From Rubrivivax sp. (GTDB taxonomy: Bacteria > Pseudomonadota > Gammaproteobacteria > Burkholderiales > Burkholderiaceae_C), in assembly GCA_004210455.1 (NCBI GenBank), contig SEFA01000041.1, forward strand, positions 1 to 55,054: 55,054 bases of DNA, in the 5' to 3' direction. This document shows positions 22,458 to 27,230 of this stretch, one piece after another. The stretch's first letter is position 1. Every line of letters starts with the position of its first letter. The notes under the pieces are model-generated. The model was given only the letters and a program-made list of their open reading frames with translations. It made no database searches and had not been told where the DNA came from. The translations under genes were made by a program, and so were the position numbers.

Positions 22458-23540
22458 ATGCAGGCCTTGCAGATCCTCGCCGGACCCCGTGCGCGCCAAC
22501 GGCTGCGCGACCACGGCCTGCGCGCCGCCGACGTGCGCGTCGTGCCCGGCGCCGCCGGCGGCCCGAAAGGGCTGGTGCTCAGCGCGCTCGACGCGCATCT
22601 CTTCGGCGAGTTCCTGCCGTCGGGCGGCCAGGAGGTCCATCTGCTGGGGGCCTCCATCGGCGCCTGGCGCATGGCCACCGCCTGCCTGACCCGCGACGCC
22701 GCGCAGGCGGACGTCGAGTTCCAGCGCCTTGCCCACGATTACGCCCATCAGGACTACGACTCGGAGCCGGGCAAGCGGCCGACCGCGGCCACCGTCTCGC
22801 GCGCGTTCGCCGGGAAGCTCGGTGAGATCTTCGGCGGACGCGAGGCGGAGGTGCTGTCGCATCCGCAGTTCCGCCTGCATGTGTTCACCTCGCGCGGCAA
22901 GCATGTGCTGGGGCGGGAAGGGCGCCTGCGCACGCCGCTCGGCTACCTCGGCGCGTTCGCGACCAACGCCATGTCGCGACGCGCGATGGGCGCCTGGCTG
23001 GAGCGGGTCGTGTTCTCCGACAAGCGTTCGCCGCTGCCGATGCCGCTGGCCGACTACCGCAGCCGGCAAGTGGCGCTTGACGCCGGCAATCTCAAGCCCA
23101 GCATCCTGGCCAGTTGCTCCATTCCGTTCTGGCTGCAGGCCGTGCACGACATCGAAGGCGCCCCCGCCGGCGCCTACTGGGACGGCGGCATCACCGACTA
23201 CCACCTGCACCTGAACTATGCCGCGATGGTCGGCGACGGCATCGCGCTCTATCCGCACTTCCAGGCCAGCGTCGTGCCGGGTTGGCTGGACAAGGCGCTC
23301 AAGCACCGGCATCGGACCAGCGCCTTCCTCGACAACGTCGTGCTGCTCACGCCCAACCCCGAGTGGGTGAAGACGCTGCCCAACGGCAAGCTGCCCGATC
23401 GCAACGACTTCCAGCGTTATCTGAACGACGTCCCCGGCCGCGCCCGCGACTGGCTGCGCGCCGTCCGCGAGGGCGAGCGGCTGCGGGACGAGTTCCGCGA
23501 GGCCTGCGCCCGGCCCACCCTCGACATCCAGGCGCTCTGA
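22458..23540 (+). CDS. Patatin-like phospholipase
   Basis: This 360-residue protein has the patatin catalytic pieces: a glycine-rich oxyanion segment (G-A-A-G-G-P-K-G, about residues 31-38), the nucleophile elbow G-A-S-I-G (64-68) and a D-G-G-I motif (about 235) supplying the catalytic aspartate. No signal peptide is visible. It probably hydrolyses acyl esters of lipids. Its 3' end overlaps the -35 region of the thrS promoter. Confidence 0.85.
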   Translation: MQALQILAGPRARQRLRDHGLRAADVRVVPGAAGGPKGLVLSALDAHLFGEFLPSGGQEVHLLGASIGAWRMATACLTRDAAQADVEFQRLAHDYAHQDYDSEPGKRPTAATVSRAFAGKLGEIFGGREAEVLSHPQFRLHVFTSRGKHVLGREGRLRTPLGYLGAFATNAMSRRAMGAWLERVVFSDKRSPLPMPLADYRSRQVALDAGNLKPSILASCSIPFWLQAVHDIEGAPAGAYWDGGITDYHLHLNYAAMVGDGIALYPHFQASVVPGWLDKALKHRHRTSAFLDNVVLLTPNPEWVKTLPNGKLPDRNDFQRYLNDVPGRARDWLRAVREGERLRDEFREACARPTLDIQAL

Positions 23541-23548
23541 GCTACACT
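23521..23548 (+). promoter_or_regulatory. Predicted sigma-70 promoter of the thrS operon
   Basis: TCGACA (23521-23526) and TACACT (23543-23548) are separated by 16 bases and resemble -35 and -10 boxes. Transcription would begin near 23555, giving a leader of about 190 bases. The -35 element lies in the last codons of the phospholipase gene. Confidence 0.55.
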
Positions 23549-23592
23549 GGACGCCTCATTTTCTTTTTCCAACAAGGACCGGGAAAGGCGAC

Positions 23593-23637
23593 ATGGTTAT
23601 GACACCGCGGACTACCCCCTCCACTGCGAAGGTTTGA
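23593..23637 (+). CDS. Threonine-rich leader peptide of thrS
   Basis: This 14-residue ORF reads [14 protein letters not shown] and then TGA, with threonine at positions 4, 7, 8 and 11. A good ribosome binding site (AAAGG) lies seven bases upstream. It sits between the predicted promoter and a strong intrinsic terminator ahead of threonyl-tRNA synthetase. That is the arrangement of a leader peptide whose control codons sense charged tRNA-Thr. It is too short for ordinary gene finding. Confidence 0.75.
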
Positions 23638-23723
23638 GCGACCGCGGCTCGTCACGTCTTTCATCAGCTGTCCGGAAAAAGTCAGCACCCCAGAAAAAGC
23701 GCGGCACGTGGTCGCGCTTTTTT
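23638..23723 (+). promoter_or_regulatory. Transcription attenuator of thrS: antiterminator and terminator
   Basis: The terminator is a 10-bp stem (AAAAAGCGCG 23694-23703 with CGCGCTTTTT 23713-23722) followed by T-rich sequence. Bases 23638-23646, immediately after the leader stop codon, can instead pair over 9 bp (one G-U) with 23707-23715, which removes part of the terminator's 3' arm. A ribosome finishing the leader would cover 23638-23646 and allow termination. One stalled at Thr codons would leave it free and give read-through. Confidence 0.7.
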
Positions 23724-23743
23724 GTTTTCTGGAGTTCCCTCTC

Positions 23744-25669
23744 ATGTCCCACATCTCCATCCAATTGCCCGACGGCTCCAAGCGCGAGTTTCCGCAGCCG
23801 GTGACCGTCGCCGAAGTCGCGGCCTCCATCGGCACGGGCCTGGCGAAGGCGGCGCTCGCCGGCCGCGTCGGCTCGGGCGACGCCGCCAAGGTCGTCGACA
23901 CCAGCTTCCTCATCGACAAGGACACGCAGCTGGCCATCGTCACGGACAAGGATCCGGACGGGCTGGACGTCATCCGCCATTCGACGGCCCACCTGCTGGC
24001 CTACGCCGTCAAGGAACTGTTCCCCGATGCGCAGGTCACGATCGGCCCGGTCATCGAGAACGGCTTCTATTACGACTTCTCGTACAAGCGTCCGTTCACG
24101 CCGGAAGACCTGGCGGCGATCGAAGCCAAGATGGGCGAGCTCGCGAAGAAGGACGAGAAGGTCACGCGCTCGGTGCTGCCGCGCGATGAAGCCGTCGAGT
24201 ACTTCAAGGGCATCGGCGAGGCCTACAAGGCCGAGATCATCGCCAGCATCCCGGCGGACCAGGACGTCTCGCTGTACGCCGAGGGCGGCTTCACCGACCT
24301 GTGTCGCGGCCCGCACGTGCCGTCGACGGGCAAGCTGAAGTTCTTCAAGCTGATGAAGGTGGCCGGCGCGTACTGGCGCGGCGACCATCGCAACGAGCAG
24401 CTGCAGCGCATCTACGGCACGGCCTGGGCGACCAAGGACGACCTCGCGAACTACCTGCGCATGCTGGAGGAAGCGGAGAAGCGCGACCACCGCAAGCTCG
24501 GCAAGGACCTGGAGCTGTTCCACATCGACGAGCACGCGCCGGGCGTCGTGTTCTGGCATCCCAAGGGCTGGACGATCTGGCAGGAGGTCGAGCAGTACAT
24601 GCGCCGCGTGTACCGCGACAACGGCTACCAGGAGGTGAAGGGCCCGCAGCTGCTGGACAAGACGCTGTGGGAGGCCACGGGCCACTGGGACAAGTACCGC
24701 GACAACATGTTCACGACGGAGTCGGAGAAGCGTGATTACGCGCTCAAGCCGATGAACTGTCCCGGCCACATCCTGATCTTCAAGCACGGCATCAAGAGCT
24801 ACCGTGACCTGCCGCTGCGCTTCGGCGAATTCGGCCAGTGCCATCGCAACGAGCCGACCGGCGGTCTGCACGGGATCATGCGCGTGCGCGGCTTCACGCA
24901 GGACGACGGCCACATCTTCTGCACGGAAGACCAGATCCTGGCCGAGTGCGTCGCCTACACGGCCCTGTTGCAGAAGGTCTACAAGGACTTCGGCTTCGAC
25001 AACATCATCTACAAGGTCGCGACGCGCCCCGACGCCCGGATCGGTTCCGACGAGGTGTGGGACAAGGCCGAGTTCGCGCTGATGGAGTCGCTGCGCGCCT
25101 CCGGCGTCGAATTCATCATCGCCCCGGGCGACGGCGCCTTCTACGGTCCGAAGATCGAATACACGCTCAAGGACGCCATCGGCCGCCAGTGGCAGTGCGG
25201 CACGATGCAGGTCGACTTCTCGATGCCCGCGCGCCTGGGCGCCGAGTACGTCGGCGAGGACGGCGAACGCCACACGCCCGTGATGCTGCACCGCGCGATC
25301 GTCGGCAGCCTGGAGCGTTTCATCGGCATCTTGATCGAGCAGCACGCCGGCGCGCTGCCGGTCTGGCTGGCGCCGACGCAGGTGGTTGTCGCCAATATCA
25401 CCGACGCCCAATCGGACTACGTTTCCAGCATTGTGAAAACGCTGCAAAAACAAGGGGTTAGGGTTCAGGCAGATTTGCGCAACGAGAAAATCACGTATAA
25501 AATCCGCGAGCATTCGCTGCAAAAGGTGCCGTTCATCCTCGTCGTCGGCGACAAGGAAAAGGCGAACGGCGCCGTCGCAGTGCGCGCCCGAGGCAACCAG
25601 GATCTGGGCGTGATGTCGCTGGAGGACTTCGTTTCGAAGCTCTCGACCGCCATCGCGGACAAGGCCTGA
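23744..25669 (+). CDS. thrS: Threonyl-tRNA synthetase
   Basis: This 641-residue class II synthetase has an N-terminal TGS domain (about 1-62), an editing domain ([10 protein letters not shown] near 75 and C-R-G-P-H-V near 188), a catalytic core with the zinc cysteine in M-N-C-P-G-H, the motif 2 region ([10 protein letters not shown]), motif 3 ([12 protein letters not shown]) and a C-terminal anticodon-binding domain. It charges tRNA-Thr. The ATG at 23744 has GGAG upstream. It is first in the operon with infC and follows the predicted attenuator. Confidence 0.98.
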
Positions 25670-27098: not shown

Positions 27099-27130
27099 AA
27101 AGGCCGACACCCCGGTGTTCGGCCTTTTTT
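27099..27130 (+). terminator. Intrinsic terminator between rplT and pheS
   Basis: AAAGGCCGACACC pairs with GGTGTTCGGCCTTT (one bulged base) and is followed by six Ts, a strong terminator inside a conserved cluster. An additional GC-rich stem (CCCGCCGG/CCGGCGGG) lies just upstream, around 27040-27062. Read-through or a downstream promoter must supply pheST. No Phe-rich leader ORF with its own stop was found. Confidence 0.75.
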
Positions 27131-27230
27131 CATTCCGGCGCAAGGGTGCGTGATGGTGCGATGTTCGCCATCCCACCGCTGCGCCATCCGACTTCCGCCA
27201 ACGCCGCCGACGCCCCGTCGACGCCCCGCG

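Follow-up and report, generated by a model that had tools for sequence, protein, structure and literature searches.

A putative threonine-sensing leader-peptide attenuator upstream of thrS in Rubrivivax and other Burkholderiales

The region upstream of the threonyl-tRNA synthetase gene (thrS) in a Rubrivivax genome very probably encodes a ribosome-mediated transcription attenuator, which would sense charged tRNA-Thr as a ribosome translates a short threonine-rich leader. This reading draws on the layout of a 55,054-nucleotide stretch of DNA (the window, from a genome of 6.3 Mb), on comparison with thrS loci from other bacteria, and on computed RNA folds with a ribosome placed at successive leader codons. 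All coordinates are window positions on the forward strand.

Layout of the thrS leader region

Read 5′ to 3′, the region holds a promoter-like pair, a Shine–Dalgarno (SD) sequence, two ATGs, a stop codon, a 55-base spacer, a terminator, a T-rich tract, and the ribosome-binding site and ATG of thrS. The promoter-like pair, already named by a sequence-only reading of the window, is present at 23521–23548 (−35 TCGACA, 16-nt spacing, −10 TACACT; 9 of 12 consensus matches); it overlaps the 3′ end of the upstream patatin-like ORF and is the only such pair in 23300–24000 (50 shuffles averaged 0.0). Its GAGCTACACT is also found at loci L002, L004, L005 and L007. Downstream, an SD-like GGGAAAGG (23581–23588), recognized from sequence and comparison, precedes candidate ATGs at 23593 and 23599 and a TGA stop at 23635–23637. 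The sequence-only reading had begun a 14-codon ORF at the first ATG; its SD and four Thr codons (ACA, ACT, ACC and ACT) hold up, but the start does not. Of 16 same-genus loci only 4 keep the ATG at 23593, as do 20 of the 111 MTP-type leaders (the set is defined below). The conserved leader is therefore 23599–23637, 12 codons and the TGA stop, with an MTPRT start at the second ATG in 15 of the 16 same-genus loci.

The strong intrinsic terminator that had been proposed was likewise found, as a 13-pair stem (23693–23705/23711–23723) followed by a T-rich tract, together spanning 23693–23728; three terminator-like matches, this one among them, occur in 23300–24000 (shuffle average, 0.9). The terminator thus lies between the leader ORF and the putative regulated gene (23744–25669; ribosome-binding site GGAG at 23731–23734), which we take to be thrS from its sequence and gene order, and whose product matches the leader's Thr codons, as is expected of attenuators. 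The predicted fold of 23560–23760 is no more stable than those of shuffled sequences (z = −1.27; 21 of 200 shuffles as good), so fold stability alone is no evidence.

Two segments could pair in alternative ways. Region 1 (23583–23610), comprising the SD, the start codon and the first codons, is predicted to pair with region 2 when the leader is ribosome-free (23583–23590 with 23655–23662, 23600–23603 with 23651–23654, and 23605–23610 with 23642–23647). Region 2 (23638–23662), directly 3′ of the leader stop, shows complementarity to two partners, the leader start and the terminator. A 9-bp alternative pairing pointed out by the earlier reading does exist, with one G-U pair: its 5′ strand (23638–23646) begins right after the leader stop, and its 3′ strand (23707–23715) is made up of the terminator loop and the start of the 3′ arm.

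Conservation of the leader ORF and terminator

To assess conservation, we sampled 138 Burkholderiales thrS loci (sets of 30 and 28, plus 80 chosen among the further matches listed, better matches first). Absence of a conserved leader ORF had been set beforehand as a refuting outcome; this outcome did not arise, since Thr-rich leaders recur in relatives whose flanking sequences have changed. In the window's family (family f1), 25 of 26 loci have a leader starting with MTPRT; across the order, MTP-type starts were found in 41 of the 138 loci, from eight families, and other families have other Thr-rich leaders (for example, MFRTSTTTQS, MSFRTTTTGTLNLG, MFKRTTTTRISR, MPRTHTTTGHFSRRG, MVPPTTTLGAFTA and MQVKHAVPAARTPTRTTTWSLSQLPR), such that leader sequence varies among families while Thr-richness is retained. 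The single family f1 exception, a same-genus locus (L016), has a thrS-proximal hairpin without a leader ORF, with short repeated units upstream instead.

The terminator recurs as well: by our scoring, 106 of the 138 loci (66 genera, 30 families) have a terminator-type hairpin no more than 250 nt 5′ of thrS, and 103 have one within 120 nt; in two (L031 and L048) the best-scoring hairpin is upstream of the leader. Taking one hairpin-bearing locus per genus, the only count that reduces relatedness, an ORF with at least three Thr was found in 35 of the 66 genera (50 shuffled sets: mean 3.3, maximum 9) and one with at least four in 23 (mean 0.8, maximum 3), with Arg (22) and Val (16) ranking next to Thr by the three-residue count; 31 of the 66 failed the three-Thr count. 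Mini-ORFs with at least four Thr numbered 208 on both strands of 654 kb (the window plus 80 motif-selected loci named below), and those followed by a terminator-type hairpin fell 84 times at the leader (overlapping starts counted) and once elsewhere. Outside the order, we considered 28 thrS loci that ranked high in similarity among 113 thrS matches; in the 27 that were readable, a Thr-rich ORF and a terminator never occurred together (hairpin in six, ORF with at least three Thr in three). By richness and conservation, then, the predicted leader is a short ORF rich in codons cognate to the gene that follows, and its translation is predicted.

Such a hairpin could instead be constitutive, ending for instance a tRNA-Val or patatin-like transcript from upstream, with the ORF incidental and thrS served by another promoter. 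At 75 of the 138 loci, thrS is indeed preceded by a tRNA-Val(GAC) gene in the same orientation (median distance from its end to thrS, 139 bases; tRNA-Asp in two more), and a number of loci have the hairpin without a Thr-rich ORF, as this explanation would have it. However, no upstream tRNA gene was found at any of the 26 family f1 loci, yet the MTPRT leader is kept there in all but one, and in the window only 15 nt separate the T tract from the thrS start codon. Thr enrichment, together with the synonymous codon change and the ribosome-position switch described below, would also be unexpected of a constitutive terminator, which we consider very unlikely.

The start of the leader includes an 18-base motif (GTTATGACACCGCGRACT) that occurs once in the genome of the window, also when two mismatches are allowed. 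It was present in 128 of 200 family genomes (98 of 141 genera), where the reversed pattern was found in none, and in 3 of 274 genomes sampled from the class, all three from family f1. For 80 loci named among the matches listed for the 18-mer scan (119 rows), thrS lies within 900 bases of the motif in 77; the other three are L200 (43 bases after the motif), L197 (347 bases) and L147, a deltaproteobacterial metagenome-assembled genome (MAG) whose match looks like chance. We examined 30 family genomes in which the exact 18-mer is missing: a ATGACACCG leader was present in 11, most of the others listed have no Thr-rich ORF, and L308 has an MTPRT leader that uses another codon. A few of the 77 thrS-linked loci, all of them from MAGs, carry titles of other groups (for example L146, Alphaproteobacteria, and L213, Chitinophaga); with both the leader and thrS present, they are probably misnamed or misbinned. 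At two further loci (L317 and L319), ThrS is 53–54% identical to that of the window (200-residue query) and an MTPRTS leader is still upstream, an arrangement that replacement or divergence of the synthetase gene alone, with the leader retained, would produce.

Codon usage was examined in 111 leaders selected by ATGACACCG or the 18-mer (39 of the 41 order loci and 72 of the 80 named loci), leaving out duplicates, loci without a scored terminator and leaders longer than 25 codons. The first three codons are constant in this set because of the selection. Codon 6, which was not a selection criterion, is Thr in 86 of the 111 leaders and uses all four Thr codons (33, 19, 18 and 16 leaders), and codon 7 is Thr in at least 61; only two Thr were found in 9 leaders.

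This pattern bears on the idea that the conserved stretch is a non-coding operator, which ThrS binds as a tRNA-Thr mimic to repress expression as in E. coli. In one large group, the leader-start stretch is indeed conserved at the nucleotide level, as an operator might be, and the autoregulation of E. coli ThrS, familiar as background, is mentioned in an excerpt of PMC2965389. Against an operator, other families keep the Thr codons while their nucleotides differ, all four Thr codons are in use at codon 6, and some of the nucleotide conservation can be put down to pairing with region 2; we regard this explanation as improbable, to the same degree as a constitutive terminator.

ACA and ACT account for none of the 79 Thr codons in the window's thrS, pheT and patatin-like gene, so these could be slow codons; three of the window leader's four Thr codons are of these two kinds. 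Rare cognate codons are a feature of other leaders, and here pairing constrains this stretch as well. Least likely of all, the leader might sense slow translation of other kinds, with Thr codons just one way of slowing the ribosome, as the possibly slow ACA and ACT codons, the leaders with two Thr only and the common Pro and Arg neighbours would allow, but across many families no residue is as enriched as Thr, and the leader precedes thrS.

Coevolution of pairing segments and ribosome-dependent folding

If the alternative pairings matter, segments from one genome should pair better with each other than with those of another, and we scored the loss of pairing when segments were exchanged between genomes. 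For regions 1 and 2, own segments beat swapped ones (z = −5.4; −3.9 for the SD part and −4.5 for the start part), and the same held when region 2 was scored against the terminator's 5′ arm and loop (z = −3.4); control combinations gave −1.4 (region 1 with the 5′ arm), 0.4 (variable part of the ORF with the 5′ arm) and +2.3 (variable part of the ORF with region 2). The antiterminator of the sequence-only reading, in which region 2 takes up the loop and the 3′ arm, suits the window but shows no order-wide signal (z = −0.5), and coevolution points to the 5′ arm instead. Within the genus, one change does fit the 3′-arm pairing (a single event, judged by eye), with GCGACC/GGTCGC in the window and its two nearest kin and GCGGCC/GGCCGC in other species. 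A hexamer, CGAACT or CGGACT, encoding Arg-Thr in the leader frame in many families, occurs in the 250 nt before thrS at 65 of the 138 loci, and pairing with region 2 explains its recurrence only in part.

In the window, two structures are predicted for the ribosome-free RNA: the terminator, and a long hairpin of regions 1 and 2 that takes in the SD and the first codons of the leader. For RNA extending to 23730, the minimum-energy fold with a ribosome whose A site is at codon 5 becomes the antiterminator (23638–23646 with 23707–23715) with further pairs, and returns to the terminator with the A site at codon 6; the ensemble probability of the 9-bp antiterminator is 0.58 and 0.25 in these two states. 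Terminator probability in the same RNA is 1.00 both ribosome-free and with the ribosome at the stop codon, and 0.47, 0.42, 0.75 and 0.29 with the A site at codons 2, 5, 6 and 9, respectively; for RNA ending at 23723, stalls at these codons give 0.64, 0.76, 0.69 and 0.15.

For transcripts still being made, we computed the probability that the 5′ arm of the terminator is held by upstream RNA while the 3′ arm is absent (the nascent measure). In the window this was 0.28 ribosome-free, 0.76 with a stall at codon 5 and 0.81 at the stop, so the nascent measure alone fails to separate stall from stop here, two states that differ in the full-length RNA to 23730. Across 58 representatives (a greedy reduction of the 111-leader set), the ribosome-free, stalled and stop values were 0.48, 0.88 and 0.62, compared with 0.68, 0.76 and 0.69 when region 2 was shuffled. 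Similar values were obtained for 26 further loci (0.50, 0.85 and 0.65, versus 0.68, 0.73 and 0.67 shuffled), comprising two near copies of the window and 24 loci with other leaders, which were chosen for at least three Thr and represent 23 different leaders, some of them near copies. Among these 24, with related loci retained, stalled values exceeded both ribosome-free values (Wilcoxon P = 7 × 10−5) and stop values (P = 4 × 10−4). The same measure for E. coli thrL was 0.43, 1.0 and 0.0.

In full-length RNA, terminator probability over the 111 loci was 0.99 ribosome-free, 0.88 stalled and 0.99 at the stop, falling below 0.5 when stalled in 12 loci only; among the 58 representatives it did so in 8, versus 1.7% of shuffles. 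Because the terminator stays at 0.88 in the stalled state, the switch would need to act kinetically. The equilibrium probability of the terminator is a weak test, however, since it remains 1.0 even for E. coli thrL. By computation, the leader RNAs offer the mutually exclusive pairings, dependent on ribosome position, that characterize attenuators.

Proposed mechanism, reach and relation to known systems

The attenuator we propose would work as follows. When Thr-tRNA is plentiful, the leader ribosome would reach the stop codon at 23635 and cover region 2, allowing the terminator to form; after ribosome release, region 2 would close over the leader SD and start, a state that should also favour termination. 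When Thr-tRNA is scarce, the ribosome would stall on the Thr codons and cover region 1, so that region 2 could engage the terminator; RNA polymerase, escaping termination, would read into thrS and, at least partly, into infC-rpmI-rplT. The earlier suggestion of ribosome-mediated attenuation at thrS is thus favoured by comparison and computation, but its extension to the whole thrS-infC-rpmI-rplT transcript is less sure: for Cupriavidus metallidurans, PMC9045368 lists separate start sites for infC and for rpmI, so the attenuator may govern the operon only in part.

In the same source, a start site listed for thrS in C. metallidurans bears the locus tag Rmet_R0015 (PMC9045368), taken to be an RNA gene. 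The many loci with an upstream tRNA-Val gene suggest a joint tRNA-Val–thrS transcript. More tentatively, and with distinctly less confidence than in the attenuator itself, we propose that ThrS supply in most of Burkholderiales may be under ancestral leader-peptide attenuation instead of an E. coli-type protein operator, and that leaders drifted while the Thr codons and the logic of regions 1, 2 and 3 were kept. In the many families where the attenuator lies behind tRNA-Val, a single promoter might then drive tRNA-Val at a constant level and thrS under threonine control. If so, threonine-tRNA charging would set ThrS supply across much of a large bacterial order, perhaps partly setting the supply of IF3, L35 and L20 as well, by way of a defined set of RNA elements absent from Rfam.

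Expression of thrS is known to be controlled through RNA elsewhere. At the E. coli thrS operator, ThrS binds a tRNA-like RNA and blocks translation, with no leader peptide; the same gene is controlled, whereas the window has a predicted leader peptide. In the T-box leaders of Firmicutes thrS, tRNA binds the RNA directly, and they too sense charged tRNA-Thr upstream of thrS with a terminator; no T-box was among the Rfam matches in the window. At the gathering score, Rfam gave one match over the whole window, a tRNA, and at E values up to 10 it gave four in 23500–23800, all unrelated. If the proposed attenuator is real, one gene would have different RNA controls by lineage: a leader peptide here, a protein operator in E. 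coli and a T-box in Firmicutes.

Leader peptides of this kind are also familiar. E. coli pheM, located after rplT, is the leader-peptide attenuator of pheST and senses Phe; its target is likewise an aminoacyl-tRNA synthetase operon, and it lies in the gene neighbourhood of thrS. Between rplT and pheS, the window has a terminator-like hairpin with a T tract (27099–27131); no Phe-rich leader ORF was found there by eye, unlike the pheM arrangement. E. coli thrL of thrABC shares with the window a Thr-rich leader peptide, an intrinsic terminator and, in the same computation, a ribosome-position switch, but precedes threonine biosynthesis genes and has Ile codons in its leader as well; Rfam gave no Thr-leader match in the window. 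Among the papers listed by literature searches, we recognized none describing a thrS leader peptide in these bacteria, and an earlier prediction may be contained in Lopatovskaya et al. 2010 (pmid 20198868), reportedly a survey titled on aminoacyl-tRNA biosynthesis operons and amino acid operons.

The closest precedent comes from an actinobacterium, Streptomyces lividans, in which a thrL leader peptide before thrS was called a threonine-dependent attenuator by the authors, according to the part of the report drawn on here (PMC8079986). As in the window, Thr codons lie in a leader peptide before thrS; the S. lividans peptide (MKRVRPFLETTPGFVPAR), as given in that part, has only two Thr, its hairpin is without a U-rich tract and its transcript has a leaderless start, and by eye we saw no sequence likeness between it and the window leader. 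The predicted device upstream of thrS in the window is classical ribosome-mediated attenuation, and a leader peptide before thrS was known already, from S. lividans (PMC8079986).
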